From contig JAISHS010000025.1 in NCBI GenBank assembly GCA_031262405.1, forward strand, positions 1-64,000: DNA of 64,000 nt, read 5' to 3'. How positions within the stretch are numbered: the stretch's first letter is position 1; every line of letters starts with the position of its first letter. The position numbers were made by a program, and so were the translations under genes. The DNA is from Oscillospiraceae bacterium (lineage in GTDB: Bacteria > Bacillota > Clostridia > Oscillospirales > Oscillospiraceae). The notes beneath the pieces were generated by a model. It had not been told where the DNA came from. It saw only the letters and a list, made by a program, of their open reading frames with translations, and made no database searches. This document shows positions 3,474 through 39,240 of the stretch, piece by piece.

Positions 3474-4716
3474 GTTCAACCTCCGCGCCCAGTTCATTGA
3501 GAATCCTATCTAACCTCTCATATCCCCTGTTGATGTGACCCGAGTCAAATAGCTCAGTGCGGCCTTCGGCGGCGAGTGCCGCCGCGACAAGAGCCGCGCC
3601 GCCTCTCAAGTCCGTCGCCGTAACCCGCGCCGCCGAGAGACGCTCAACGCCCTTGATAATCGCAACGCGCCCGACAACGTCGATGTCCGCACCCAGACGG
3701 CGCATCTCAATCGCGTGGCGGAAACGGTTTTCAAAAATATTCTCCGTAAAGACCGTCGTGCCGACGGCCTTGAGACAGGCCGCCATAAGCAGCGGCTGAG
3801 CGTCCGTCGGAAAGGCGGGATAGGGCCCCGTTGATATCGGACGCGCCGCGCGAAGAGCGCCGCCGGCGCGAATCGAAACCCCCATGGAGGAGCGCGTAAT
3901 CTCACAGCCCATCTGCTCCAGAGCGGAAGTAACCGTCTCGAAATGCTCCGGAGTAACGCTCTTGAGAGAAACGTTCCCTCCGGCGCAGGCCGTAGAACAC
4001 AGCAGCGTCGCCGCGACTATCCTGTCGGTCATTACGCGGTGCCCAACTCTTTTCCGCGGCTCAAAGCCGCCTATTACAACGGTGCTCGTGCCCGCGCCCG
4101 AGACCCTCGCGCCCAGCTTTATAAGATAGTCCTGCAAATCTATAATTTCAGGCTCCCGCGCGGCATTCGTGATAACGGTCTCCCCCTCGGCGGCACAGGC
4201 AGAGAGCATCACGTTCTCCGTCGCCCCGACGCTGGGAAAGGCAAGATTAATTCTCCCGCCGCGCAGTCCCGAGTCACGGCAAAAAAGCTCCCCGCCCTGC
4301 TCGGTAATCTGCGCGCCTAGGGTACGCAGCGCCTCAAGATGCAGATCAACGGGTCTCGCGCCCAGCTCACAGCCCCCCGGATAGGAGATCTGAGCCGAGT
4401 GCGCTCTCGCGAGAATCGCCCCGAGAAAAATCACAGAGGAGCGCATCTCGCGCATGAGATAGTGAGGAATATCGGTTCCGGTCATCGGCCGCGAGTCTAT
4501 GTAAATTGTGTCCGCGTCCCTGTCAACAATGCAGCCCAAGTGCCGCAGAATTTCTATTGCCGCCTCGACGTCCGAGAGCATCGGGCAGTTTATAAGCTCC
4601 GTCTCGCAGCCGGTAATGATAGAGGCCGCCATAATGGGCAAAACCGCATTCTTGGAACCCTGAACCCTGATTTCTCCGTTAAGGCTATTTCCGCCGGTTA
4701 TTCTCCAGTTACTCAT
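3460..4716 (-). CDS. murA: UDP-N-acetylglucosamine 1-carboxyvinyltransferase
   Basis: Transfers enolpyruvate from phosphoenolpyruvate to UDP-GlcNAc, the first committed step of peptidoglycan synthesis, in the cytoplasm. The N-terminal GSKNAVLPIMAAS substrate loop and the fosfomycin-reactive cysteine in PGGCELGARPVD are present. The track's upstream ATG (4731) is rejected because GGAGG sits 8 nt before the ATG at 4716, giving 418 residues, normal for the family. The last codons and stop are contributed by the family B heptad array. It lies between murG and ftsQ. Confidence 0.97.
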   Translation of the reverse strand: MSNWRITGGNSLNGEIRVQGSKNAVLPIMAASIITGCETELINCPMLSDVEAAIEILRHLGCIVDRDADTIYIDSRPMTGTDIPHYLMREMRSSVIFLGAILARAHSAQISYPGGCELGARPVDLHLEALRTLGAQITEQGGELFCRDSGLRGGRINLAFPSVGATENVMLSACAAEGETVITNAAREPEIIDLQDYLIKLGARVSGAGTSTVVIGGFEPRKRVGHRVMTDRIVAATLLCSTACAGGNVSLKSVTPEHFETVTSALEQMGCEITRSSMGVSIRAGGALRAARPISTGPYPAFPTDAQPLLMAACLKAVGTTVFTENIFENRFRHAIEMRRLGADIDVVGRVAIIKGVERLSAARVTATDLRGGAALVAAALAAEGRTELFDSGHINRGYERLDRILNELGAEVELIEN

Positions 4717-4798
4717 AAATTCCCTCCGCACAGCATTTTCACGCCATACTATGCGTCGGGAGCGATTATTGATAATTTACGGGCAAAAACTTAGTCGT

Positions 4799-5950
4799 TT
4801 ATGCGTTTGAACCGTTCTTATGATTCTTTCTCGACGCCAGCTTCATCGCCGTTTCGGCAATGTTGCCCGTCGCGTCCAAAGCGCCCATTTTCTTCATCTG
4901 CCGTCCCATAGACTCCAGTCTCTCAGGTTTAGATAGCAGCGAGTCTATTTTGCCGAGCAGAGAGCTTGCAGTAACCGCTGTCTCCGGAATCACAATCGCC
5001 GCTCCCGCCTTTTCAAAGACCCGAGCGTTCTTCTCCTGATGGTTATTGGTTACATTCGGCGAGGGAATAAGCACAGCCGGCTTTCCGAGCGCTGCAAGCT
5101 CCGCCAGAGTCGAAGCCCCCGCGCGGCAGACTACAATATCCGCCGCCGAGCAAACAGGCGCCATATCGTAAATATACTCGCGCACATCAAAGCCGCGCGA
5201 CAGCAAATCTGTCAGACCGCGTCCGGCAAGCTTTTTCGCGAAAGCGGCGTAGCCTCCGCGTCCGGCGGAGTGTATCAGAGAAAAAGGCTCCGTCGCGGCG
5301 GCAATTTCAATCAAATCCGCCATGGTATCGTTCATAAACTGCGAGCCGAGACTGCCCCATACGGAAACCACCAGGCTCTTGCCTCCGTCCAGCCCCAGAG
5401 CCGCGCGGGCCTGAAGCTTATTTGCAGCTCCGAACCCTGCCCTCACGGGCGTGCCCGTTACCTCGACGCGCTCTGGCTTGGGATAGAGGCTCCGGCTCTC
5501 CTCAAGCCCGACAAGAATTTTATCCGCCGTGCGCGAGAGCATTTTTGTCGTGAGCCCCGGCTCGGCGTTGCTCTCGTGTATGAGCGTAGGAATGCCCTTG
5601 GCGTGCGCCGCCCTAAGCACGGGATAGCAGACATAGCCCCCCGTCCCGATAGCGACGTCGGGCTCGAACTCCTCAATAATCTTCTTCGCGGCGCTCGTCG
5701 CCGTGAGAACATTTTTAACGGTATTCAGATTGTGGCGCAGTCCATCCAAGCTCAGCGAGCGGGAAATGTTCGTAATCTCCACAGTCTCTAGCGGAAACCC
5801 CTCGCGCGGAACCAAGCTCTCCTCCATGCGCCCCGCCGCGCCTACAAAGAGCACCTGACTGTCGGGATGCAGCTGCATAAGCCTCTGCGCGACTCCCAGC
5901 GCGGGGTTAATATGTCCGGCGGTTCCGCCGCAGGTAAAAAGAAATCTCAT
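4799..5950 (-). CDS. murG: Undecaprenyl-PP-MurNAc-pentapeptide GlcNAc transferase
   Basis: Glycosyltransferase family 28 enzyme that adds GlcNAc to lipid I, giving lipid II on the inner membrane face. The N-terminal GGTAGHINPALGVA loop and the C-terminal donor-site region (CRAGASTLAELAALGKPAVLIP, then NNHQEKNA) are intact over 383 residues. Its ATG overlaps the ftsW stop by one base (TAATG), so the two are translationally coupled. Confidence 0.97.
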   Translation of the reverse strand: MRFLFTCGGTAGHINPALGVAQRLMQLHPDSQVLFVGAAGRMEESLVPREGFPLETVEITNISRSLSLDGLRHNLNTVKNVLTATSAAKKIIEEFEPDVAIGTGGYVCYPVLRAAHAKGIPTLIHESNAEPGLTTKMLSRTADKILVGLEESRSLYPKPERVEVTGTPVRAGFGAANKLQARAALGLDGGKSLVVSVWGSLGSQFMNDTMADLIEIAAATEPFSLIHSAGRGGYAAFAKKLAGRGLTDLLSRGFDVREYIYDMAPVCSAADIVVCRAGASTLAELAALGKPAVLIPSPNVTNNHQEKNARVFEKAGAAIVIPETAVTASSLLGKIDSLLSKPERLESMGRQMKKMGALDATGNIAETAMKLASRKNHKNGSNA

Positions 5951-7164
5951 TAGACCCCCTGTTCCGCCGCCTTCTTAATCTGACGGCTTTTGACGATTTT
6001 TCTCGTGGGAACGTCTCTGGAAATACTCAGAATAATCCCCATCTCGCCCAGCTGCATGAGCAGAGCCGTCCCTCCATAGCTGAAAAACGGCAGTGAAATT
6101 CCGGTGGCGGGAACAAGATTCGTACAGACCGCTACATTAAGTAAAACTTGAATCGCCAGCAGACTCGTGATCCCCGTGCACACCAAAAAGCCATAGCGAT
6201 CGCGGCAGTGAAGGGCAATCCAGAACCCGCGTATGATGAGCAGCGCGAAGAGAATGAGAATAAGCGTCGCGCCGATGAAGCCCAGCTCCTCGCAGATGAT
6301 AGAGAAGATATAGTCGTTGTGCTCCTCCGGAAGATAGAGATACTTCTGCCTGCTCTGCCCGAGCCCCAGCCCGAAGAGCCCGCCGCTGCCAATGGCATAG
6401 AGCGACTGCACAACTTGAAACCCGTCGTTTCGCGGGTCCGAAAAGGGATCCAGCCAGACCCCAATACGCTCGGACTCATAGCCCACGACGAAGAGCATGA
6501 TCCCCACGAGCCCCGCCACAAGCAGCGCGCCGCCCACGAACCACATTGTGCGCGTGCCCCCGACAAACATCATGATAAAGCCGATCCCGAGAATTATAAT
6601 ACAGGCCGACAAATGCGGCTGAAGCGCCAGCAGTCCGACAAGCACGACAAGAATAATCCCAAAGGGCAGCACCCCGCGCCTAAAGGTGCCCATGTCGTTT
6701 TTATACTCGCAAATTAGGTGGGCGAAATATAAAATCACGCCGACCTTGGCAATCTCAGAGGGCTGAATCGTAACCGGGCCGAGATTTATCCAGCGCGTCG
6801 CCTGCTCATTGCCGACGCCTATCACCAGCACCACCACCATCAGCACCCCTGCCCCGATTAGCACCCAAATAGCGCACTTCCGATAAAAATTTACCGGCAT
6901 TCTCGACGCCAAAAGCATCACGATAATGCCCCCGACCGCGAAGAGGAGCTGCCGCGTGAAATAGTAGGAGGCGTTGCCGCCGGTCTCATCTTTCAGATCA
7001 TAATATGCCGAGGCGTAGCTCGCGGAAAACACCATGACGACGCCGATTGTAAGCAGCAGCAGCGTCAGCATGAGAAAGGGCGCATCGATAGGCCCGCGCG
7101 AAATCCTTATGTCCCCGCGGTAATCGCGCAGCTTTTCCGAGTTTTCCACTGTTTTATATGCCAT
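5950..7164 (-). CDS. ftsW: SEDS-family septal peptidoglycan polymerase FtsW
   Basis: 404-residue SEDS glycosyltransferase with about ten membrane helices and the conserved late loop LPFFSYGGTALLMQLGEMG. FtsW polymerises lipid II at the septum with a class B PBP, here probably the PBP at 9792-12146. Its start lies inside the end of mraY (11-bp overlap) and its stop overlaps murG. The cytoplasmic N-terminus is long and charged. murD, which often sits between mraY and ftsW, is absent. Confidence 0.95.
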   Translation of the reverse strand: MAYKTVENSEKLRDYRGDIRISRGPIDAPFLMLTLLLLTIGVVMVFSASYASAYYDLKDETGGNASYYFTRQLLFAVGGIIVMLLASRMPVNFYRKCAIWVLIGAGVLMVVVLVIGVGNEQATRWINLGPVTIQPSEIAKVGVILYFAHLICEYKNDMGTFRRGVLPFGIILVVLVGLLALQPHLSACIIILGIGFIMMFVGGTRTMWFVGGALLVAGLVGIMLFVVGYESERIGVWLDPFSDPRNDGFQVVQSLYAIGSGGLFGLGLGQSRQKYLYLPEEHNDYIFSIICEELGFIGATLILILFALLIIRGFWIALHCRDRYGFLVCTGITSLLAIQVLLNVAVCTNLVPATGISLPFFSYGGTALLMQLGEMGIILSISRDVPTRKIVKSRQIKKAAEQGV

Positions 7165-8167
7165 ATCTGTTAAATACCCCGAAATAAGAGATTACCGCCA
7201 TCAGAATCGAAATCGCGGTGAACATAGTGAAAATCTGCTTCTCCGTGCGCTTTTTACCGCTCCAGCCGCCCATCTCAAGGTGGTGGTGAAAGGGAGCCAT
7301 CTTGAAAAAGCGCTTACCGTGGGTTATCTTAAAATACAAAACTTGAATTACATCCGAGAGCACCTCGGCTATATATATTATGCCGACAGTAACGATAATA
7401 AGCGGCATATCCATCGCAAAGGCCATCCCCGCGACGGCTCCGCCCAGAAACAGCGAGCCCGTGTCGCCCATAAAAACCTTCGCCGGGTAAAAATTAAAGG
7501 ACAAAAACGCAAGCAGCGCCCCCGCCAGCCCTGATGAAAAAATACCGCGCGCCATAAAGCTCTCTCCCCAGGTAAACGCGACAACGGAGAAGAAAATGAA
7601 CACGGGAATCGTAGTGCCCGTGGCAAGACCGTCCAGCCCGTCTGTGAGATTTACAGCGTTTACCGTCGCGACAATCGCAAACACCGCAAAGATAAAATAA
7701 AGCGCCTCCGGAAGCTGCACCGTAATATTGGCAAAGGGAATATAGAGCGCGGGCGAGATGAAGCCAAATTGCCGCAGCGCAAATACAAAAACCGTTGCCG
7801 CGGCCACCTGAAGAATAAATTTCTTCCCCGCCGTCAGCCCAAGATTTTGCTTCTTTTTGAGCTTATAATAGTCGTCCACAAAGCCGATTGCCCCAAAGGC
7901 AAGCGCAAAAGCCAGAACGAACAGGTGCCCGAAATCGCCGTCCGCAAACGCGCTGTAGCCCACGCCGACGCAGGCCGCCGCGCAGCCCACGATAAAGATG
8001 ACCCCGCCCATGGTGGGTGTGCCCGCCTTTGTCTTGTGCCAGCTCGGCCCGTCCTCGCGAATAGATTGCCCCGCCTTGACCCTTCTGAGAAAAGGCACAA
8101 AGACCAGACCCGTTATAAGCGCCGCGGCAAAGCCGATAATAAACGCCGCGCAAAGCTTTATTGTCAT
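7154..8167 (-). CDS. mraY: Phospho-N-acetylmuramoyl-pentapeptide transferase
   Basis: Integral membrane enzyme that moves phospho-MurNAc-pentapeptide to undecaprenyl phosphate, forming lipid I. Visible motifs: DDYYKLKKKQNLGLT, the catalytic NLTDGLDGLATG loop, FMGDTGSLFLGG and HHHLEMGGW. The 337 residues with about ten helices are normal for the family. It follows murE by about 60 bp; the usual intervening murF is missing. Confidence 0.97.
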   Translation of the reverse strand: MTIKLCAAFIIGFAAALITGLVFVPFLRRVKAGQSIREDGPSWHKTKAGTPTMGGVIFIVGCAAACVGVGYSAFADGDFGHLFVLAFALAFGAIGFVDDYYKLKKKQNLGLTAGKKFILQVAAATVFVFALRQFGFISPALYIPFANITVQLPEALYFIFAVFAIVATVNAVNLTDGLDGLATGTTIPVFIFFSVVAFTWGESFMARGIFSSGLAGALLAFLSFNFYPAKVFMGDTGSLFLGGAVAGMAFAMDMPLIIVTVGIIYIAEVLSDVIQVLYFKITHGKRFFKMAPFHHHLEMGGWSGKKRTEKQIFTMFTAISILMAVISYFGVFNRYGI

Positions 8168-8228
8168 ATCTTAAACCTCGTAAACTTTTTTGAAAATCAT
8201 CGCCGCAGAGCCTTGCTCAGAGCAAACC

Positions 8229-9686
8229 CTAATCCGTTTTCAGCTCCGCCAGTACCTTAGCCACAATCTCCCGCTCGTCCATGTGGCGTTTTTCCGTGCC
8301 CACAATCTGATAGGTCTCGTGCCCCTTTCCGGCGAGAATTATAACATCGTCCGGCCGTTGATTTTCAATCGCCCAGGCGATTGCGCGCTCCCTGTCCTCA
8401 ATAACGGTAAATTTGCTCTTTGGCTCCTTCACCCCGGAAACAATTTCGGCGATTATCTCCGCCGGGACCTCCGTGCGCGGATTGTCGGAGGTTATAATCG
8501 CAAAGTCGGCGAGCCTCACGCCGATTTCGCCCATAATCGGTCTCTTCGCTCTGTCCCTGTCGCCGCCGCAGCCGAAGAGCACAACGACCCTCCCCGGCGA
8601 GACCTCCTTAATCGAGCGGATAACATTCTCCAGCGCGTCCGGCGTGTGGGCATAGTCGATGAGAATCGTAAAGCCCATAGTCCCCGGAACGACCTCAACT
8701 CTCCCCTTTACTCCCTTCGCCTCGCGCAGAGCCGCCGCAGTCTCGTCGAGCTTTAGCCCCAGCAGATGCGCCGCCGCAATTACCGCCAGCGCGTTATAGA
8801 CCGAGAACCGCCCCGGAATCCCCAGACGTATCCGCTCAATGCTGCCCTCCCCGATGAGCGCGACAAAGCGCACCTCCTCAGGGGAAAATCTAATGTCGCG
8901 GGCTATGAGATCGGCCTCCGAGTGCTTCTCGGAGAAGGTAAACACCGGACACTGCGCTTTCTCGAGCATAAAGCCGCTCCAGTCGTCGTCGAGATTGACC
9001 GCCAGAGCCTTGCACTGCCCAAAGAGCCGCGCCTTGGCCTTGGCATATTCCTCCATGCTGCCGTGAAAATCCAGATGATCTTGAGTCAGATTGGTAAATA
9101 CCCCCGCTTCAAAGCTCACCCCGCCGACGCGCGAGAGCGTCAGCGCGTGGCTGGAGACCTCCATCACGACATATTTGCAGCCCGAGTCCGCCATCTCGCG
9201 GAAGAGCCTTTGCAGCTCATAGGACTCCGGCGTCGTGTGCTCCGTCTCCAAAACGCGCGAGCCGATCATGTTCTGATTTGTGCCGATAAGCCCAACCATC
9301 TGCCCCGTTACGCTCTCGATAACGTGCTTGAGAAGCATCGTCGTCGTGGTCTTGCCGTTGGTACCCGTAACGCCGACAAGCTTCATTTCATCGGCAGGAT
9401 TGCCGAAAAATTCGCAGGACGCCAGAGCTAAGGCAAGGCGCGAGTCCGCAACGAGCACATAGGGAATGCTGCCCTCCGGCTTCTCCTGACAGATAACCGC
9501 CGCCGCGCCGAGCTGCGCCGCCGCATCTATGAATTTGTGCCCGTCGCTGCTATAGCCCCGAAGCGCCACAAAAACGTCCCCCGGCCTGACTCGCCGCGAG
9601 TCATAGCACAGCCCGGAGATTTCCATTGCTCCGTCCGCCGTACTCTCCAGCACTTGTATGTTCTTTAGTAACTCCTGAAGTTTCAT
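8229..9686 (-). CDS. murE: UDP-MurNAc-tripeptide synthetase, meso-DAP type
   Basis: ATP-dependent Mur ligase adding the third residue to UDP-MurNAc-L-Ala-D-Glu. The P-loop GVTGTNGKTTT and the substrate motif SDNPRTE are seen; DNPR is the signature of meso-diaminopimelate ligases, so the cell wall is probably DAP-type. The start at 9686 (MKLQELL, with GGTGG upstream) is preferred to the track start at 9716 and gives 485 residues. It sits between the PBP and mraY. Confidence 0.96.
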   Translation of the reverse strand: MKLQELLKNIQVLESTADGAMEISGLCYDSRRVRPGDVFVALRGYSSDGHKFIDAAAQLGAAAVICQEKPEGSIPYVLVADSRLALALASCEFFGNPADEMKLVGVTGTNGKTTTTMLLKHVIESVTGQMVGLIGTNQNMIGSRVLETEHTTPESYELQRLFREMADSGCKYVVMEVSSHALTLSRVGGVSFEAGVFTNLTQDHLDFHGSMEEYAKAKARLFGQCKALAVNLDDDWSGFMLEKAQCPVFTFSEKHSEADLIARDIRFSPEEVRFVALIGEGSIERIRLGIPGRFSVYNALAVIAAAHLLGLKLDETAAALREAKGVKGRVEVVPGTMGFTILIDYAHTPDALENVIRSIKEVSPGRVVVLFGCGGDRDRAKRPIMGEIGVRLADFAIITSDNPRTEVPAEIIAEIVSGVKEPKSKFTVIEDRERAIAWAIENQRPDDVIILAGKGHETYQIVGTEKRHMDEREIVAKVLAELKTD

Positions 9687-9701
9687 TTTACCACCATTTA
9701 A

Positions 9702-9720
9702 AAAATTGCTTCGCAATTTT
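9702..9720. repeat. Triloop palindrome upstream of murE
   Basis: AAAATTGC-TTC-GCAATTTT, an 8-bp stem; read on the minus strand the loop is GCGAAGC, the exceptionally stable GNA-type DNA mini-hairpin. It is one of many 3-nt-loop palindromes in the intergenic DNA of this window. The rest of 9721-9791 shows no gene. Confidence 0.6.
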
Positions 9721-9791
9721 GATAAGTCGCTCGTTCCTCTCGCTTTGTTATCGCAGACCGCTGCGGCGGCTACGCCCCAAATTCCAATAGC

Positions 9792-12146
9792 CTAGAATTC
9801 GTTTTGGTCTCGTGTATCAATAACGCTAACCTCTATCACCGCGCCGTATTCAAGCTTCTGCCCGACGCCGACGGACTGGCTCAAGATAATGATCTGCGCG
9901 GGGTCTGTAATCGCGCCGGAGGCCCTGATAAACAGCGCCTGCTCGGCAAGCTTCTGCCGCGCCATGGCATAGGTCAGCCCCTGCAAATCGGGCATCGTCG
10001 CCTCGCCCTGCCCGGGCTCAACTCCGAAGTATAGTATAACCTGACTGCCCGCCGCAATAACGCTGCCCGCCGCGGGAAGCTGCTTTGTAACAAGCTCGCC
10101 CGTGCCCATCGTCCGATTTGTAAACCCAAGCTCAGACAGCTTTGCGCTCGCCTCGTCGGCGCTCATGCCGCTCACGTCAGGCACCGCCTTATCAATTATC
10201 GCCGCTTCCTGCTCGTCATAGACCGGCTCTATGCCCATATAGGGCAAAATATCCGCAAACATCTTCCCCACAGTCGGCGCACCCATCTGACCGCCGCTGC
10301 GATATATACCGGTATCTGCGCTGGGACTGTCTAAAAACACCAAAATCGCGATCTGCGGATCGTCCATCGGCGCGACGCCTACGAAGGACACGATATACTG
10401 CTTCTCGCCCGTCTCCGCCTCGAGCACCGTGTTGGTGGAGGTTCCGGTCTTACCGCCGATTCTAAAGCCCGCTACAGCGGCGTTCTTTCCCGTACCCTCA
10501 ACGTCTCCTACGACCATCTCAAGCATCCGGCAGACCTCCGCGCTCGTCTGACTGCTTATGACCTGACGGATTAGCTCTGGCTCTCTCTTCATGATAGAAA
10601 CGCCCTCGGAGTCTATAATCTCCTCAACGAGATAGGGGCGCATGAGATTTCCGCCGTTTACGCAGGCGGAGACCGCCGTAATGAGCTGCAGGGGCGTAAT
10701 GGTAAAGGTCTGCCCGAAGCTTGCCGCGGCAAGCTGAGTCTTGTTGTCCGGGTTCGTAAATAGATTCTCCGGCCACCACATACTCCCGCTCTCACCGTTT
10801 AAGTCTATGCCCGTTTTGCCGGTGAGATACACGTCCTTGTCCGTCTGCGCCTCAAAGAGACCGAAGGCCTCGGCATAGTCATAAAATTTTTCCGCACCCA
10901 GCCTCATGCCGATCTGCACGAAGGCAACGTTGCAGGAGTGCTGCAACGCCTGAGTCAGCGTCTGCGCACCGTGACCGCCCGCCTTCCAGCAGTTGACCGG
11001 CTGACGCCCCGGCACATCAATCGAGCCGCCGCAGTAATAGCCGTCGTTCTCGTGCACAACTCCCTCGTTGAGAGCCATCGCAAGCGTAAGAATCTTAAAG
11101 GTCGAACCCGGCTCATAGGTATCAGTAACTGTCTTGTTGCGCCACTGCTGCAGCTGCGCCTCGGTAAGCATCTGCGAGGCGAGCTCAGGGTCCGGCTCCG
11201 CGTCAATGAGCGCCTTTACATCCTCGGACACATCCTGATAGTTGTTTAGATCAAAATTACCCAAACTCACCATGCCCAGAATCTTCGCGGTCTTGACGTC
11301 CATCGCAATCGCGCCCGCGCCGTTTAAAAGATCAAAGTCGCGCGCCGCCTGCGCTAGGTGCTTTTCCATGTAATACTGAATCGTGGAGTCAATGGTAACT
11401 CCCATATCATAGCCGTCCACCGCGTCGTAATAGTCCTCAAAGCTCGTGAAGAGCATATCGGTACCCACGGCGTTCTTCGCTCTGACAATACGCCCGTCGA
11501 CGCCGGTGAGATAGTCGTCATAGACCAGCTCCAAGCCGAGCAGCCCGCGGTTTTCCGCGCCGACATAGCCGATAACGTGGCTGGCAAGACTGCTATAGGG
11601 ATAATAGCGCTTCGAGTCCTCCTGCAAATACAGCCCGTCTATGTCATAATCCTTCTTAAACTGGCGCACCCGCTCCGAGACAGACGGCTCAACCTTGAGA
11701 GCTATCGTCTCATACTGTCGGTCCTTCTTGGCAAGCTTATCGAGCACAACCTGCGGCTCAATCTCAAGAATCTCCGCAAGTCCCTCCGCTATAAACTCCT
11801 CCGTCAGAGCCACGGTAAAGTGCGGACTGTCAGCGTCCACAATATCATAGGTATAGACCTCGCGCGGGCTTATATAAATCGTCGCGACGCTGGCGCTCAT
11901 GGCAAGAATATCCCCGTTCGCGTCATAGATAGTGCCGCGCGCGGCGGTCACCTCCGTGTCCCAAACCTGCTGCTCAATCGCCTTAGTCTCATAGAAATCG
12001 TGCCTAATGATCTGCAGCTGAAACAGCCTCACCACCAAAACCAGAAAAAGAGCTATGCCGCACACTATCATAAGTATGAGTGTGCGGCGCAGCATCATCG
12101 AATTGGGCGCAATGCGCGCCCCTCTACCTTTATTGTTACCAGTCAT
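9792..12146 (-). CDS. Class B penicillin-binding protein with two PASTA domains (SpoVD/PBP2-type)
   Basis: Transpeptidase that cross-links septal or spore peptidoglycan. Order of parts: short cytoplasmic tail, membrane anchor at about residues 17-42, dimerisation domain, then the transpeptidase domain with STFK (in YEPGSTFK), SCN and KTG (GGKTGTS), followed by two PASTA repeats (AVPDVSGMSADEA... and MPDLQGLTYAMA...). The start at 12146 has AGAGG 7 nt upstream, giving 784 residues. Its position after ftsL and before murE is that of B. subtilis pbpB/spoVD. Only one such gene is seen here, so it may serve vegetative division, sporulation or both. Confidence 0.93.
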   Translation of the reverse strand: MTGNNKGRGARIAPNSMMLRRTLILMIVCGIALFLVLVVRLFQLQIIRHDFYETKAIEQQVWDTEVTAARGTIYDANGDILAMSASVATIYISPREVYTYDIVDADSPHFTVALTEEFIAEGLAEILEIEPQVVLDKLAKKDRQYETIALKVEPSVSERVRQFKKDYDIDGLYLQEDSKRYYPYSSLASHVIGYVGAENRGLLGLELVYDDYLTGVDGRIVRAKNAVGTDMLFTSFEDYYDAVDGYDMGVTIDSTIQYYMEKHLAQAARDFDLLNGAGAIAMDVKTAKILGMVSLGNFDLNNYQDVSEDVKALIDAEPDPELASQMLTEAQLQQWRNKTVTDTYEPGSTFKILTLAMALNEGVVHENDGYYCGGSIDVPGRQPVNCWKAGGHGAQTLTQALQHSCNVAFVQIGMRLGAEKFYDYAEAFGLFEAQTDKDVYLTGKTGIDLNGESGSMWWPENLFTNPDNKTQLAAASFGQTFTITPLQLITAVSACVNGGNLMRPYLVEEIIDSEGVSIMKREPELIRQVISSQTSAEVCRMLEMVVGDVEGTGKNAAVAGFRIGGKTGTSTNTVLEAETGEKQYIVSFVGVAPMDDPQIAILVFLDSPSADTGIYRSGGQMGAPTVGKMFADILPYMGIEPVYDEQEAAIIDKAVPDVSGMSADEASAKLSELGFTNRTMGTGELVTKQLPAAGSVIAAGSQVILYFGVEPGQGEATMPDLQGLTYAMARQKLAEQALFIRASGAITDPAQIIILSQSVGVGQKLEYGAVIEVSVIDTRDQNEF

Positions 12147-12270
12147 ATAGAACCTCTTGAGCCGCCCCGGCTGCCACATATAGGTATTATAACACAGGTT
12201 AACCGCTATGGCTAGTATTTTTTGTAAAATCCCCGCCGAGTCCCTGTCCTATCCTATAATACTGCGGCGC

Positions 12271-12816
12271 TCACCCGAAATATGACGTTATCGACGTCAA
12301 AAGATTTGAAAGGCTGTCCAAAAATCCGTCTGAACCCGAGTCCTCCTCCAGAATAACCGCCTTGTCGGGGGCGGAGCTGTTTATGTATCTTATTTGTTCC
12401 GGCCGCGGCTGCCGCATTCCCAGCACGCTCGTGGCATATTCCTCAATCTCGCTGCGGTTAAAAACGCTCTCATACTCAATGAGAAGTCTGTTTCTCTCCG
12501 ACTCCAGCTCCTGCAGCTGAGTCTCAAGCTTGGCGGCCTCGTCTGTTATAACCGTCAGCTGCGCGCTCGCCGTAAGATAAAGGATAATAAAGACTGCCGC
12601 ACAGGCATAGCCAATAATCGCCATCGCCGAAACCGACTGCTTTGGTCTCGGTTTCGCCTTGGGCAAAAGCTGCTCCCGCTCTATGGGCGGCGCCTCGGGA
12701 ATAACAATTTTCTGCTTCTTTTCCGGCTCAAACCACTCTCGCTGTGCCGCCGTCTCAAGGTCATAGGCAAGAGACCCGAACACCGGAATCTTAGTTAAAC
12801 CATTTTCGTCTGTCAT
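12271..12816 (-). CDS. ftsL: FtsL-like septum protein
   Basis: 181-residue bitopic protein with a Lys/Pro-rich cytoplasmic part, one membrane segment at about residues 62-84, and an extracellular coiled coil (LETQLQELESERNRLL) followed by a short tail. This is the FtsL/DivIC architecture. Sequence conservation is low in this family, so the call rests on position between rsmH and the class B PBP plus topology. FtsL recruits and activates FtsW-PBP. GAGG precedes the start. Confidence 0.8.
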   Translation of the reverse strand: MTDENGLTKIPVFGSLAYDLETAAQREWFEPEKKQKIVIPEAPPIEREQLLPKAKPRPKQSVSAMAIIGYACAAVFIILYLTASAQLTVITDEAAKLETQLQELESERNRLLIEYESVFNRSEIEEYATSVLGMRQPRPEQIRYINSSAPDKAVILEEDSGSDGFLDSLSNLLTSITSYFG

Positions 12817-12893
12817 TCTCTTGCCTCCTCTCGCGATTATTCTGCTAATCCTTCCGGCTCTTATCCCTGTCCCCTTGTGCCCTTCGTTTTTAT

Positions 12894-13829
12894 CTAAACC
12901 CTTTCGGCTACCCTCAGCTTCGCGCTGCGGCTGCGTGGATTTTCCTCAATTTCCTCCGCCGTCGGAAGAATCGGCTTGCGCGAAACGCTCCTCAGGGTCT
13001 GCTTGAACCCGCAGACACAGACGGGCAAATCTCGCGGACAGGTGCAGCCCTTTTCAAATCTCGCTATCGACTGCTTAACAATTCTGTCCTCCAGCGAGTG
13101 AAAGCTAATAGCACAGAGCCTCCCCCCGGGCTTTAAAAGCTCGGGAACCTGCTCCAGCGCACAGCTTATCGCGTCAAGCTCGCCGTTAACCGCAATTCTA
13201 AGAGCCTGAAACACCCGCTTTGCCGGATGCTGCTTCTCCCGCAGCGCGGAGGCCGGCATCGCCGACTTTATAATTTCGACGAGCTGCCCCGTGGTCATGA
13301 TGACCCCCTCGCGCCGCGCATTTATAATCGCATTCGCGACTCGCGGAGCATAGCGCTCCTCGCCGTATTCATAAAAAATCTTCTTAAGCGCCTCATAGTC
13401 CCAGCTGTTCACGATCTCCGCCGCCGTGAGACGCTCCTCGGCGTCCATCCTCATGTCGAGCTTACTGTCCGCCATGTAAGAAAACCCGCGCGCGGGATCG
13501 TCGAGCTGTGGAGAGGACACGCCGAAGTCAAAGAGCACCCCGTCAATCTTCTCAATTCCCAGCCCCGACAAAATCGCCTTCAGCTCCGCGAAATTGCCCT
13601 TGGCAAGCGTCACCTTTTCCATAAAAGGCGCCAGCTTCACCTGCGCTCTGTGCAGAGCCGTCTCGTCCCGATCTATCGCAACGAGCCGACCGGAGCCGAG
13701 TTTTCGCGCAATGAGCGCCGAGTGCCCGCCCAGACCCAGCGTAGCGTCCACATAGAGCCCCTCCGGCTTTATACTCAAAGCCTCAAGGCACTGACTGCGC
13801 ATTACCGGATAGTGGGAAAAGTCCGTCAA
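12894..13829 (-). CDS. rsmH: 16S rRNA (cytosine1402-N4)-methyltransferase
   Basis: SAM-dependent methyltransferase modifying C1402 of 16S rRNA. The N-terminal HYPVMRSQCLEAL and the SAM site DATLGLGGHS are clear, with GVLFDFGVSSPQLD and the C-terminal HSLEDRIVK. 311 residues is the family length. It overlaps mraZ by 4 bp (ATGA), as in most dcw clusters. Confidence 0.97.
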   Translation of the reverse strand: MTDFSHYPVMRSQCLEALSIKPEGLYVDATLGLGGHSALIARKLGSGRLVAIDRDETALHRAQVKLAPFMEKVTLAKGNFAELKAILSGLGIEKIDGVLFDFGVSSPQLDDPARGFSYMADSKLDMRMDAEERLTAAEIVNSWDYEALKKIFYEYGEERYAPRVANAIINARREGVIMTTGQLVEIIKSAMPASALREKQHPAKRVFQALRIAVNGELDAISCALEQVPELLKPGGRLCAISFHSLEDRIVKQSIARFEKGCTCPRDLPVCVCGFKQTLRSVSRKPILPTAEEIEENPRSRSAKLRVAERV

Positions 13830-14266
13830 AACTCAAGCTCCTCCATAACCGCGCCAAGATTCTCCGGCGTCATCTCCGACTCGCGGATGCCCTTCCAGGC
13901 GGCCTCGTCCCAAAACTCCGCATGGTCGTTGCAGCCGATAACGGCAACGTTTTTCTTAAGACCGGCATACTCCCGCAAATTTTGCGGCAGAAGAATACGC
14001 CCCTGCGCGTCAACGTCGCACTTCGCCGCATAGGCGAAGAAGGGTCTCATCTTGCGCTGCTTAACATAGGGCATGGCGTTCACCTTTTCGGAAAACACCT
14101 GCCAATTTTCCGCTGAAAAGGCGGATAGGCACTTGTCCATTGAGAGCGTCACGAAAAATGAACCTCCCAGATCCTCGCGCATCCTCGCAGGGACAGAAAG
14201 CCTGCCCTTAGAATCCAGCGTATGCGAATATTCACCTGTCATGCTCTCACCCACTTCACCGAACAA
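13826..14266 (-). CDS. mraZ: Transcriptional regulator MraZ
   Basis: 146-residue protein of two SpoVT/AbrB-like halves, with the paired D-x-K-G-R (LDSKGRLSVPA) and D-x-Q-G-R (VDAQGRILLPQ) motifs. MraZ forms ring oligomers that bind GTGGG-type direct repeats and repress the dcw operon. A matching repeat set with 10-bp spacing lies between its promoter and start, so autoregulation is likely. First gene of the dcw operon. Confidence 0.96.
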   Translation of the reverse strand: MFGEVGESMTGEYSHTLDSKGRLSVPARMREDLGGSFFVTLSMDKCLSAFSAENWQVFSEKVNAMPYVKQRKMRPFFAYAAKCDVDAQGRILLPQNLREYAGLKKNVAVIGCNDHAEFWDEAAWKGIRESEMTPENLGAVMEELEF

Positions 14267-14383
14267 AACTCTCTCTTTTAATCCTCCGAAAACCTTCGGA
14301 ATTTCTCTCTTCAGAAAAACAAACTAACATCCTAACCGCATCGGCAAATATGCGGTTTTGCTTGGGGCTGCAATGGGGTTGCA

Positions 14384-29198: not shown

Positions 29199-29227
29199 TT
29201 GACAAAACGCACTATATATAATAGTAT
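29199..29227 (+). promoter_or_regulatory. Promoter of the T-box leader
   Basis: TTGACA, 17 bp, TAGTAT on the plus strand, about 20 bp before the first T-box helix. Confidence 0.7.
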
Positions 29228-29247
29228 GTCACTCAATACAGCAAAAA

Positions 29248-29530
29248 GCTGTGATGAGGAACAAGTAACCCCCCTATAAAATCGCTCAGAGAGTTGCCGG
29301 TCGGTGAGAGGCGCGCGGAAAACGGGATCGGCGAATACATCCTCTAGCTTCGCACCGAACGGCAAAATGGCTCAGTAGGCTGCGGCGGGTGCGCCCGTTA
29401 AAGCGTCGGGGTCATTGCACATCGCTTTTCGCGACGGAAGTGACCTATTAAGGCAGTCGGCGCGAGTCGGCTGTAAACCAAGGTGGTACAGCGAGTTTTC
29501 GCCCTTCGGATTTTCCGAAGGGTTTTTCAT
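29248..29530 (+). ncRNA. T-box riboswitch, apparent tyrosine specifier
   Basis: tRNA-sensing leader. Stem I opens with GATGAGGAACAAGTA; the distal elements AGAGAG and GGTGAGAGG are present; the 3' strand carries GAATACATCCTC, where TAC (29336-29338) sits in the specifier position before the closing UCCUC. The antiterminator T-box core is AAGGTGGTACAGCG (29480-29493), with TGGT to pair with a tRNA ending ACCA, consistent with the A73 discriminator of bacterial tRNA-Tyr. A terminator and the CoA ligase gene follow. Uncharged tRNA-Tyr would be expected to raise expression. T-box identity is firm; the Tyr call is by alignment by eye. Confidence 0.88.
29502..29527 (+). terminator. T-box intrinsic terminator
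   Basis: CCCTTCGG-ATTTT-CCGAAGGG followed by TTTTT; alternative to the antiterminator that uses the T-box core. Confidence 0.85.
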
Positions 29531-29571
29531 TTTGCCCAAACCGCCAAATACTATTAGGAGGAACAAACACC

Positions 29572-31212
29572 ATGCCAATCACAGACTTTCTTGAGAGAAA
29601 CGCGAACGACTTTCCGGACGAGACCGCCCTCGTGGAAATCAACCCCGAGCACGAGCACACAGCCGGCTCAAGCTGGAAGGAATTCAGCCTCGTCGAGCTC
29701 AACTACAACGAGAACACCTACCGCCGCGAGATTTCATGGCGCGACTTCGACTGCCGCGCAAACCGCTTTGCCCATCTTCTCATGGCAAACGGCGTCAGAC
29801 CCGGCGACAAAGTAGGAATCCTTCTGATGAACTGCCTCGAGTGGCTGCCCATCTACTTCGGCGTCCTCAAATCCGGCGCGCTCGCCGTACCTCTCAATTA
29901 CCGATACACCGCCGACGAAATCGCTTACTGCTTAGACCTCGCCGACTGCTCGCTGCTAATCTTCGGCAACGAATTTCTCGAGCGCGTCGAAGCCAAAAAA
30001 GACTCTCTCCCCAAGCTTCGCAAGCTCTACTATGTCGGAGCCTCCTGCCCGGACTGGGCGGAGAGCTACTACCAGTTCATGAGCTACTGCTCCAGCCGCA
30101 AGCCCCCGATCGAATTCACCGACGACGACTTCGCCGCCATCTATTTCTCCTCCGGCACAACGGGCTTCCCGAAGGCGATACTGCACAAGCACCGCAGCCT
30201 CACACACGCCGCCCTGTGCGAGCAAAACCACCACGGTCAAAAGCGCGGCGACTGCTTCCTGTGTATGCCGCCCCTGTACCACACCGGCGCGAAAATGCAC
30301 TGGTTCGGCTCACTCGTCTCCGGTAGCCTCGGCGTACTCCTGCGCGGAATCAGCCCCAAGTGGATACTCGAGACCGCCGCAAGCGAGCGCGCGACAAATG
30401 TCTGGCTCCTCGTACCTTGGGCACAGGACATCCTCGACGCCCTCGACCGCGGCGACGTAAAGCTCGCCGATTACGATCTCTCCGCCTGGCGGCTCATGCA
30501 CATCGGCGCGCAGCCCGTACCCCCCGCCCTCATTAAGCGCTGGATGGAATACTTCCCCCACCACCAATACGACACCAATTACGGTCTCTCCGAATCCATA
30601 GGCCCCGGCTGCGTCCACCTCGGCGTAGAGAATATACACAAAGTCGGCGCAATCGGCATCCCCGGCTTCGGCTGGGAGTGCCGCATAGTCGACGAGAAAA
30701 AGCAGCTCGTCTCCCCCGGCGCCGTCGGCGAGCTCGCCGTGCGCGGCCCCGGCGTCATGACGGAATACTACCACAACGAGCAGGCGACGCTCGAGTCCCT
30801 CTCGCCGGACGGCTGGCTCTGGACCGGCGACATGGCGCGCCAGGATGAAGACGGCTTCATCTGGCTCGTCGACCGCAAAAAGGACGTCATAATCACCGGC
30901 GGCGAGAACCTCTACCCCGTCCAGATCGAAGATTTTCTACGCGGCAACGACAAGATAAAAGACGTCGCCGTAATAGGCCGCGCCCACCCGCGCCTCGGCG
31001 AAATCGCCTGCGCGATAATCGAGCTCAAACCCGGCGCCACCTCCTCAGTCGAGGAGATGAACGCCTTCTGCCATGACCTGCCGCGCTACAAGCGCCCGCG
31101 CGAAATCATCTTCGACACTATCCCGCGCAACCCGACCGGCAAAATCGAAAAGCCCGCCCTGCGCAAAAAATACGGCAGCGTGGACCTGGTCTCCCAGCAG
31201 ACCGGCGCCTAG
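29572..31212 (+). CDS. AMP-forming acyl/aryl-CoA synthetase under T-box control
   Basis: 546-residue class I adenylate-forming enzyme: activates a carboxylic acid as acyl-AMP, then probably transfers it to CoA. P-loop YFSSGTTGFPK (about 190), the adenine motif YGLSE, the hinge region GWLWTGD...DRKKDVIITGGENLYP and the C-terminal lysine motif PTGKIEKPALRKKY are intact. No carrier-protein domain and no signal peptide. AGGAGG precedes the ATG; a terminator follows, so it is a single-gene transcript. The Tyr-type T-box suggests a substrate tied to tyrosine supply, for example an arylacetate re-assimilated to aromatic amino acids, but sequence alone does not fix the acid. Confidence 0.9.
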   Translation: MPITDFLERNANDFPDETALVEINPEHEHTAGSSWKEFSLVELNYNENTYRREISWRDFDCRANRFAHLLMANGVRPGDKVGILLMNCLEWLPIYFGVLKSGALAVPLNYRYTADEIAYCLDLADCSLLIFGNEFLERVEAKKDSLPKLRKLYYVGASCPDWAESYYQFMSYCSSRKPPIEFTDDDFAAIYFSSGTTGFPKAILHKHRSLTHAALCEQNHHGQKRGDCFLCMPPLYHTGAKMHWFGSLVSGSLGVLLRGISPKWILETAASERATNVWLLVPWAQDILDALDRGDVKLADYDLSAWRLMHIGAQPVPPALIKRWMEYFPHHQYDTNYGLSESIGPGCVHLGVENIHKVGAIGIPGFGWECRIVDEKKQLVSPGAVGELAVRGPGVMTEYYHNEQATLESLSPDGWLWTGDMARQDEDGFIWLVDRKKDVIITGGENLYPVQIEDFLRGNDKIKDVAVIGRAHPRLGEIACAIIELKPGATSSVEEMNAFCHDLPRYKRPREIIFDTIPRNPTGKIEKPALRKKYGSVDLVSQQTGA

Positions 31213-31237: not shown

Positions 31238-31272
31238 AACAAAAGCGTCGCCCTCGGCGCTTTTGTTTTTTA
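31238..31272 (+). terminator. Terminator of the CoA synthetase gene
   Basis: AACAAAAGCG/CGCTTTTGTT stem, 10-nt loop, followed by TTTTT. The rest of 31273-31447 is AT-rich without a gene. Confidence 0.9.
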
Positions 31273-36455: not shown

Positions 36456-38870
36456 TTATTTCGGTTTCACGATCAGATTTATCAGCTTATTCTTGACCAC
36501 GATGACCTTCACGATGTCCATGCCCTCGATCAGCCGCGCGATTTTTTCGTTAGCCTTTGCAAGCTCGAGCACCATCTCGTCCGGCGCATCGAGCGGAATA
36601 ATAACCGTCGCCTTGAGCTTTCCGCCCACTTGAACGGCAATCTCCTTTTCGGCGTCCAGCGTTTTCGCCGGATCAAATTTCGGCCAAACCTGCTCGCAAG
36701 CCAGACCCTTAAAGCCCTGCTTCTCCCAAAGCTCCTCGGCTATGTGCGGCGCGAAGGGCGAGAGCAACGTCAAGAGCATCTTGATGTCCCCGCGCGTCGG
36801 CGCGTTCTCATAGAAGGTGTTAACGAGGCTCATGAGCGTCGCGATTGCGGTGTTGAACTTCATGTTCTCAATGTCGTCGCCGACCTTCTTAATCGCCTTG
36901 TGAATCTCGCGCTCGTTTTTTGCGGAATAGGTCTCGTCTCCCGGAAGCTTATTCTCCGCAAGGTTCCAAATCCTGTCCAGAAACCGCTTGCAGCCCTTTA
37001 CCGCCGTGCTCGACCAAGGCACCGACTTTTCAAAGTCGCCGATGAACATTATATAGAGCCTAAGCGTGTCCGCGCCGAACTCCGCGACGATGTCGTTGGG
37101 GTTTACGACGTTTCCGCGAGACTTGCTCATCTTCTCGCCGCCCTCGCCGAGAATCATGCCGTGGCTCGTGCGCTTCATATAGGGCTCGCTCGTCGGCACA
37201 ACGCCCAGATCGTAGAGGAACTTGTGCCAGAACCGCGAATAGAGCAGGTGCAGCGTCGTGTGCTCCATGCCGCCGTTGTACCAGTCCACTTGATGCCAGT
37301 AGCTTATCGCATCCTGCGAAGCCAGAGCCGTGTCGTTGTGCGGGTCTAAATAGCGCAGATAGTACCAGCTCGAACCCGCCCACTGCGGCATGGTGTCCGT
37401 TTCGCGTTTCGCCGGCCCTCCGCAATGCGGGCAAGTTGTATTCACCCACTCGTCCATATGCGCCAAGGGACTCTCGCCGTCGTCCGTGGTCTCATAGCTC
37501 GAGACCTCCGGCAGCTTCACGGGAAGCTGCTCCTCCAGCACGGGAACCCAGCCGCATTTCTCGCAGTAGACCAGAGGAATCGGCTCCCCCCAGTAGCGCT
37601 GCCGCGAGAAAACCCAGTCGCGCAGCTTGAAGTTAACGGTCTCGCGGCCGATATCGCGCTCGGAGAGCCACTTTATCATCAGCGGAATCGCCGCCTTGAC
37701 GCTCATTCCGTCCAGAAAACCGGAATTCACCATAATCGCGTCCTCGTCCTTGGCGACGTAAGCCTCCTTGGTGACGTCCCCGCCCTTGACGACCTCGATT
37801 ATCGGCAGACCGAACTTCTCGGCAAACTCCCAGTCGCGCTGATCGTGCCCCGGAACCGCCATAATAGCGCCGGTGCCATAGGACGCGAGAACATAGTCGG
37901 AGATGAAAATCGGAATGCTCTCCCCCGTCACGGGGTTAATAGCGGAAACGCCCTCGAGCCGCACGCCGCTCTTGTCCTTAGCAAGCTCCGTGCGCTCAAA
38001 GTCCGACTTCTTCGCGGCGTCATTTTGATATGCGCGCACCTCGTCAATATTCGTGAGCCGCGCCGCCCACTTTTCAATCAGCTCGTGCTCCGGCGCGAGA
38101 ACCATATAGGTCGCGCCGAAGAGCGTGTCGGGGCGCGTGGTGAAAACCTTGATATCGTCTCCGGCGTCGGCCTTGAAGACCACCTCCGCGCCGACGGAGC
38201 GGCCAATCCAGTTGCGCTGCTGAGTCTTGACGCGCTCTATATAGTCGACCTCGTCCAAATCGTCCAGCAGCCTCTGGGCGAACTCTGTAATCTTCAGCAT
38301 CCACTGGCTCTTCTCACGCCTGACAACGTCGGAGCCGCAACGCTCGCAGACCCCGCCGACGACCTCTTCATTTGCAAGAACGCACTTGCAGGAGGTGCAC
38401 CAGTTGACGGGCATACTCGTTTTATACGCCAGCCCGCGCTTAAAAAACTGCATGAAAATCCACTGCGTCCACTTGTAATAGTCAGGCTCGCTCGTGACGA
38501 CGCACCTGTCCCAGTCAAAAGAGAAGCCCAGCATTTGAAGCTGCGCGGTAAAGCGGCTGATATTCGTCTTCGTGACCTCGCGCGGGTGCATATGGTTAGC
38601 TATCGCATAGTTCTCCGTGGGCAGCCCAAAGGCGTCGTAGCCGATGGGAAACAACACGTTATATCCCTGCATCCTGCGCTTGCGCGCGACTATGTCGAGC
38701 GCGGTATAGGGTCTCGGGTGTCCGACGTGCAGCCCTTGCCCGGAGGGATAGGGAAACTCAATCAGCGCGTAATATTTAGGTCGATTATCGTTGTTAAAGG
38801 CGGCGTAGGTCTTGTGCGCCAGCCAATACTCCTGCCATTTTTTCTCAATCGCTGTGAAATCATATTTCAT
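36456..38870 (-). CDS. leuS: Leucyl-tRNA synthetase
   Basis: Class I synthetase charging tRNA-Leu. HIGH-type motif HVGH in [20 protein letters not shown], zinc-type cysteines ([16 protein letters not shown]), CP1 editing domain, and KMSKS in [11 protein letters not shown]. The start at 38870 ([16 protein letters not shown]) gives 804 residues; the track's longer ORF runs into rsfS. It is last in the nadD-LCP-rsfS run with a 7-bp gap, and no T-box precedes it. Confidence 0.98.
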
Positions 38871-38877
38871 ATGGCTT

Positions 38878-39240
38878 TTACCTCTGCCCGACAAGCGCCG
38901 ACACATCTATGTCCTGCGCGTCCGACCAGAGCCTCTCCAATCCGTAAAACTCACGCACCAGTTCCAGAAAAACGTGCACCACAACGCAGCCGAAGTCTAA
39001 GAGCACCCAGCCGCCCTCTCTGTAGCCCTCGCGGTGCAAAAGCGTCTCTCCCTGCTCCTCCATTACCTTTTCAACCTCGTCGCAGAGGTTCTTTATCTGA
39101 GTTGTGGAGTTGGCGGTGCATATCACAAAATAGTCGGCAATAACACTCAGCTCCGAAACCTTCAAAAGCTTAATGTCCCGGGCAATTTTATCTCCCAGCG
39201 TTTTGACAATAGTCTCCGCCATTTCCTGTGGTGTAATCAT
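38878..39240 (-). CDS. rsfS: Ribosomal silencing factor RsfS
   Basis: 120-residue protein that binds ribosomal protein uL14 and blocks subunit joining in poor nutrient conditions. The conserved core ([22 protein letters not shown] and [21 protein letters not shown]) is clear. Order yhbY, nadD-yqeK, LCP, rsfS, leuS matches Firmicutes practice. Confidence 0.95.

Follow-up and report, generated by a model that had tools for sequence, protein, structure and literature searches.

Related systems

Rumen and gut anaerobes are known to regenerate amino acids from the short acids that amino-acid fermentation leaves behind, and the same chemistry leads from phenylacetate to phenylalanine and from 4-hydroxyphenylacetate to tyrosine. 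AMP-forming ligases look alike, which makes it difficult to assign those that start this reductive-carboxylation route. The reductive carboxylation of branched-chain acids and the formation of phenylalanine from phenylacetate have been established in rumen cultures (PMC7356843), as has the use of aryl acids via indolepyruvate:ferredoxin oxidoreductase (IOR) in Methanococcus maripaludis (PMC4162585, PMC3462420). In the M. maripaludis route, once the arylacetate has been activated, IOR converts it by reductive carboxylation to the arylpyruvate, and the same sequence of reactions is inferred for the locus described here, which lies in a 64,000-nucleotide stretch of an Oscillospiraceae genome (the window; contig JAISHS010000025.1). 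The present system differs from the archaeal one in being bacterial, T-box-controlled and dependent on a different ligase family (no comparison with the archaeal ligase was made).

A second related system consists of PaaK (TIGR02155), IOR and an ACT protein. Here too, an AMP-forming ligase is linked to iorAB, and in relatives the T-box matches the product (UUC, Phe). Unlike PaaK (PF14535), the window enzyme is a 546-aa protein composed of PF00501 and PF13193, and its T-box reads UAC. The MbcS-type synthetases with VOR form a third system, to which correspond ligases of the same genome under an Ile or Val T-box, one copy being followed by genes for a 2-oxoacid:ferredoxin oxidoreductase. These MbcS-like ligases differ from the window enzyme in carrying an N-terminal HTH/cupin-like part and in serving the branched-chain side.

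The tyrS-type Tyr T-boxes (RF00230) share with the window leader the Stem I AGAGA and G-UGGUG motifs, the GAA-specifier arrangement with UAC, the AGUA/GAA Stem II, Stem IIA/B, Stem III, the UGGU antiterminator and a competing terminator. The window leader differs from them in the kind of gene it governs, which encodes a CoA ligase and not a tRNA synthetase, an enzyme of amino-acid biosynthesis or an amino-acid transporter. No earlier description of a T-box on an acyl-CoA synthetase, on IOR or on reductive carboxylation was found in open-licence full text, in which the key T-box surveys are not covered. The words "CoA" and "ferredoxin" do not occur in the main text of the survey of Wels 2008 (PMC2494555), and "CoA ligase" and "ferredoxin oxidoreductase" do not occur in a further survey (PMC3766115).

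T-box leader and ligase gene

The following features were identified at the locus.

29199-29227 (+): sigma-70-like promoter, TTGACA-17-TAGTAT; 10/12 match to the consensus, which does not prove function
29242-29509 (+): T-box leader with Stem I, Stem II, Stem IIA/B, Stem III and antiterminator; RF00230 match, leader kept 5' of the ligase gene in relatives
29336-29338 (+): specifier codon UAC (Tyr), flanked by GAA and A; frame taken from tyrS T-boxes, other T-boxes of the genus and the discriminator base
29484-29487 (+): T-box bulge UGGU, pairing with A73-CCA of tRNA-Tyr; from the sequence and the tRNA ends of the genome
29501-29528 (+): intrinsic terminator, 10-bp stem and T run; -19 kcal/mol, fold z -3.1
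29556-29562 (+): ribosome binding site AGGAGGA, from the sequence
29572-31212 (+): AMP-forming acyl/aryl-CoA ligase, 546 aa, proposed 4-hydroxyphenylacetate--CoA ligase; from PF00501 and PF13193, orthologs and IOR linkage
31239-31271 (+): putative terminator, ACAAAAGCG..CGCTTTTGT followed by a T run; found by eye, without a terminator scan

The initial annotation had described a T-box ahead of a single AMP-forming acyl/aryl-CoA synthetase gene. The leader matches RF00230 over the full model (1-219) with 74.9 bits and an E-value of 1.9e-16 (cmscan in E-value mode, 541-base search), and with an E-value of 1.2e-16 when the whole genome was scanned with RF00230. The curated gathering score of this Rfam family is 93 bits, and the default Rfam scan of the window gave no listings; the T-box thus stands as a full-length match 5' of the ligase gene that remains below the curated score. 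Higher scores were obtained for the leaders of orthologous ligases in loci L022 (108.9 bits), L015 (94.8 bits) and L010 (93.4 bits) and for the operon leader of locus L040 (109.1 bits). Other Rfam matches in the ligase leader (anti-hemB, leuA-Halobacteria and ffh) are all far under their curated scores and were taken as chance. The 5' arm of the terminator overlaps the 3' strand of the antiterminator, so that the two structures are predicted to be mutually exclusive; antitermination itself is inferred.

The gene product likewise agrees with the initial annotation. Both ANL domains (PF00501 and PF13193) are present together with the catalytic motifs SSGTTGFPK, YGLSE, TGD, GDMARQDEDGFIWLVDRKKD and a C-terminal PTGK. 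No PaaK model (TIGR02155/PF14535) is among the Pfam or NCBIfam matches shown for the ligase, PF13193 being present instead. The best NCBIfam matches are fatty-acid--CoA ligases, every one under its curated cut-off. The closest solved structures (the fatty-acyl-CoA ligases FadD5 and FadD13 and a feruloyl-CoA synthetase) are distant, and with no close characterised relative, homology does not reveal the substrate. The next gene encodes an unrelated SLH/Big_5 surface protein, and since a hairpin with a T run precedes it, the ligase unit appears to be monocistronic. To this extent the gene is alone under its T-box, as had been stated, but in the genus an SSF (Na+:solute) symporter gene is a second member of the Tyr T-box regulon.

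Specifier codon

The specifier loop of the ligase leader reads GAA-UAC-A-UCC (29333-29342). One deletion next to UAC is required in the covariance alignment; read without the gap, the codon is ACA (Thr), which would make the leader responsive to tRNA-Thr. This frame requires a different T-box bulge. The tRNA-Thr(UGU) of the genome ends U-CCA (U73) and would need UGGA, whereas the bulge is UGGU; the thrS T-boxes of the genus have, as expected, an ACC-R specifier with UGGA. The genome encodes a tRNA-Tyr(GUA) ending A-CCA (A73), so that of the two tRNAs only tRNA-Tyr fits UGGU. The tyrS T-boxes of relatives have the layout GAA-UAC-R, as does the ligase leader, although in one of them (L210) the T-box lies about 460 bases upstream of tyrS and is more loosely tied to that gene.

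The frame was also derived from other T-boxes of the genus. A rule by which the codon is followed by one base and then by the 3' helix strand was calibrated on 27 T-boxes from two genus members, and with it the codon agrees with the downstream gene in nearly all other T-boxes of these two genomes. The codons obtained are ACC for thrS, GUC for valS, GCC for alaS, AUC for ilvA and ilvB, CUC for leuA, UUC for pheS and UGC for cysteine genes. UGG is read, with spacing identical to that of the ligase leader, in the T-boxes of trpB, of trpE and of the gene for an ABC binding protein of trp type. The second T-box of L022, which precedes a metY-like gene, has AUG. The default frame of TBDB also leaves one base after the codon and gives UAC in the ligase leader (PMC7778990).

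The specifier is UAC (Tyr), which is settled as far as sequence allows, and a response to tRNA-Thr can be dismissed with near certainty, the ACA frame being ruled out by the discriminator base and by the thrS and tyrS T-boxes. The TAC specifier and the TGGT core fitting tRNA-Tyr, both named in the initial annotation, are thereby upheld by the tyrS layout, A73 and the genus frame rule together. The covariance model, which had been suggested there as a check of the specifier, returned Tyr once the alignment gap was resolved by the tyrS T-boxes and the discriminator base.

Distribution of the ligase and its T-box

Orthologs of the ligase were found in 30/60 relatives, and at least 80 ortholog loci are present in the genome collection. 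They occur at 60-84% identity in Oscillospiraceae, Lachnospiraceae, Ruminococcus flavefaciens and Treponema, and also in one Smithella MAG. Each of the 11 genus genomes with the ligase has a T-box 5' of it, and the same holds for 10 other loci. All 21 of these leaders carry UAC, and the remainder of the leader is variable. Most orthologs (those of Ruminococcus, Treponema and most Lachnospiraceae) have neither a T-box nor a linked IOR.

On the ligase tree, the T-boxed ligases fall into the L041 clade, at L022 and into the clade of the genus and its neighbours; beyond the genus, UAC is found in at least two ligase clades. About five changes of T-box state are needed on this tree; the estimate is rough, and the pattern used for it missed L005 and L036. 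The genus group, the L041 group and L022 are also separate on the leader tree, on which deep support is too weak to judge whether the leader had a single origin.

Close orthologs were detected in Treponema/Spirochaetaceae (L069, L071, L075, L080, L082, L084, L085, L090 and L092). The Treponema orthologs nest among Clostridia on the ligase tree, which suggests, from the tree alone, horizontal transfer in the gut. Another close ortholog outside the Bacillota belongs to a Smithella MAG (L083), a record that could be a binning error.

Linkage to indolepyruvate:ferredoxin oxidoreductase

The gene iorA, which encodes the alpha subunit of IOR, is located within about 5 kb of the ligase gene in 17/80 ortholog loci, against a chance expectation of about 0.3 loci (phylogenetic dependence ignored). 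Three gene orders were observed, with iorA downstream, upstream or divergent, usually accompanied by iorB, paaK and a gene for an ACT protein, and an SSF gene is near the ligase gene in 8/80 loci. The two genes are also associated across genomes. iorA is present in 28/30 relatives with the ligase and in 14/30 without it (Fisher p 1.4e-4), and outside the genus in 18/19 and 14/29, respectively (p 0.0013); the genomes are not independent in either comparison.

The initial annotation had proposed a search of the genome for IOR genes with Tyr or Phe T-boxes. An IOR is present in the genome of the window (G000:C16:7199-8920; IOR_alpha 708.9 bits, cut-off 650.9), with iorAB on a separate contig. This check thus had a positive outcome, as did that of the specifier. 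No T-box could be recognised at the IOR genes of the window's genome, which also lie apart from the ligase gene; T-boxes on operons that contain iorA occur in L040 (Tyr) and L079 (Phe).

The locus L040 (Clostridiales MAG, JAAZCE010000016.1) is decisive for the pathway reading. A UAC T-box (GAA-UAC-C, 109 bits) heads an operon of SSF-ligase-iorA-iorB-paaK-ACT and an aminotransferase-like (PLP) gene, which is cut off by the end of the locus. Judging from gene content, a single Tyr switch would control transport, activation, reductive carboxylation and perhaps transamination. In the genus of the window, the SSF symporter is encoded by a separate gene with its own UAC T-box directly upstream (9/9 detected). 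In L106, the UAC T-box is on the SSF gene, and the ligase gene follows on the same strand. Neither SSF nor paaK was found in the genome of the window, the assembly of which is 78% complete.

These linkages bear on the possibility that the enzyme acts on ordinary fatty acids, the Tyr T-box being a general amino-acid starvation signal or a chance acquisition. Apart from the sub-threshold NCBIfam matches to fatty-acid--CoA ligases, little points this way, and the reading is regarded as highly improbable, given that a T-box with UAC is kept across the genus and in separate ligase clades, that linkage to IOR, PaaK and SSF recurs and that UAC is also found on SSF and on the entire L040 operon.

Proposed pathway

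It is considered likely, without being certain, that the Tyr T-box controls a CoA ligase for the salvage of tyrosine from 4-hydroxyphenylacetate via IOR and that it is induced by uncharged tRNA-Tyr. Tyrosine shortage would leave tRNA-Tyr uncharged, and its GUA anticodon would pair with UAC in Stem I. The A73-CCA end would pair with UGGU, the antiterminator would form, the terminator at 29501-29523 would be avoided and the ligase would be made; both this tRNA-dependent antitermination and the response of expression to tyrosine are inferred. Import of the acid would fall to the SSF-type Na+ symporter, which in the genus is itself under a Tyr T-box; this role is likewise inferred. Once inside, the arylacetate, for which 4-hydroxyphenylacetate is the likeliest candidate, would be activated by the ligase to the CoA ester at the expense of ATP (substrate and activity are inferred). 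IOR (iorAB, elsewhere in the genome), presumed to run reductively with reduced ferredoxin, would add CO2 to give 4-hydroxyphenylpyruvate, from which an aminotransferase would form tyrosine. The pathway of reductive carboxylation put forward in the initial annotation is thus supported, strongly in comparative terms, by observed genomic features: the T-box, its Tyr specificity and conservation, the linkage to IOR, PaaK, SSF and aminotransferase genes, and the presence of IOR in the genome. Against it stand the absence of enzyme data and the presence of paaK in the same Tyr operon of L040, where the assignment of ligases to acids is unsettled. Further points against it are the unlinked IOR without a T-box and the missing SSF in the window's genome, and the many orthologs that lack both T-box and IOR linkage.

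The direction of flux through IOR is also inferred. In peptide-fermenting archaea, IOR is known in the catabolic direction, and IOR and the ligase might similarly convert tyrosine to 4-hydroxyphenylacetate for energy. Such a catabolic or fermentative role is very improbable indeed: an anabolic one is argued for because the T-box is turned on by uncharged tRNA-Tyr, that is, under shortage, while the AMP-forming ligase consumes ATP in making the CoA ester and the L040 operon contains both a symporter of importer type and a gene resembling an aminotransferase. Since most genus members have a tyrA-type gene (prephenate-dehydrogenase-type, PF02153; 9/11 other genus genomes), salvage by the ligase would supplement de novo tyrosine synthesis and would not be obligatory.

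If the proposal is true, a specific function, the conversion of 4-hydroxyphenylacetate to tyrosine, can be given to a ligase family of Oscillospiraceae, Lachnospiraceae, Ruminococcus flavefaciens and Treponema. The repertoire of T-boxes would also extend from the making and import of amino acids to the recycling of their breakdown products.

T-boxes of other acid ligases

The gene paaK is located directly 3' of GAA-UUC (Phe) T-boxes in four relatives (G047, G051, G038 and G046; loci L272, L273, L274 and L275), where it is apparently, by its leader, a Phe-controlled gene for phenylacetate salvage. In L079, a UUC (Phe) T-box at 4825-4577 (-) heads iorA-iorB-paaK-ACT. Phenylalanine serves as a control here: the specifier goes with the amino acid expected as product, UUC standing on paaK and UAC on the ligase.

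This pattern also bears on whether, within the same pathway, the ligase mainly uses a different aryl acid (phenylacetate, 3-(4-hydroxyphenyl)propionate, 4-hydroxybenzoate or indoleacetate), with tyrosine starvation as a mere proxy for a shortage of aromatic amino acids. ANL ligases are often promiscuous, the Tyr operon of L040 contains both paaK and the ligase, and a feruloyl-CoA synthetase is among the closest solved relatives. However, the T-boxed ligase leaders all read UAC and the paaK T-boxes that head transcripts read UUC, and arylpyruvates arise via IOR only from C6-C2 acids. PaaK, the phenylacetate ligase, occurs together with the ligase in 23/30 ligase genomes, which makes the two enzymes probably non-redundant. 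Another aryl acid is therefore judged unlikely, though it cannot be discounted, and 4-hydroxyphenylacetate is retained as the preferred substrate. The idea that the ligase substitutes for a missing PaaK is unsupported, given the same co-occurrence.

Two further ligases under T-boxes were identified on contig C15 of the window's genome (L176). An AUC (Ile) T-box near 5813-6060 (+) is followed by an open reading frame at 6132-8402, and a GUA (Val) T-box near 8486-8758 (+) by one at 8723-11098. Both open reading frames consist of an HTH/cupin-like N-terminal part and an AMP-ligase, and the ligase part of the first best matches MbcS, below the cut-off. The second ligase is followed by VorB-type 2-oxoacid:ferredoxin oxidoreductase genes (12006-14361) and by a putative aminotransferase gene (from 14379), judged ilvE-like by eye. 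These ligases are probably the branched-chain counterpart, putatively converting 2-methylbutyrate towards isoleucine and isobutyrate towards valine.

When a gene under a T-box is on, the specifier tells which amino acid the cell lacks and so points to the substrate of a ligase. It is reasonably probable that a T-box code for reductive carboxylation exists, in which the specifier of each ligase names the amino acid that its acid becomes, so that the RNA identifies the substrate. The code would comprise the ligase and the SSF importer for Tyr, PaaK and the IOR operon for Phe, and the MbcS-like ligases with VOR for Ile and Val.

Several other loci were noted in these scans. The window contains a leucyl-tRNA synthetase gene at 36456-38906 (-), near which the genome scan gave no T-box. 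On the minus strand of G000:C15 (L176, near 5267), a third T-box of 53 bits precedes a leuA-like gene (3565-4995); its specifier loop has diverged and allows no confident reading. The T-box at G001:C7:21179-21437 (L225/L276), with the ambiguous loop GAA-GUUC-C (Phe UUC or Val GUU), precedes a 100-aa open reading frame and another SSF symporter gene. On the same contig, an AUC (Ile) T-box at G001:C7:37943-38171 (L233/L277) heads a four-gene 2-oxoacid:ferredoxin oxidoreductase operon.
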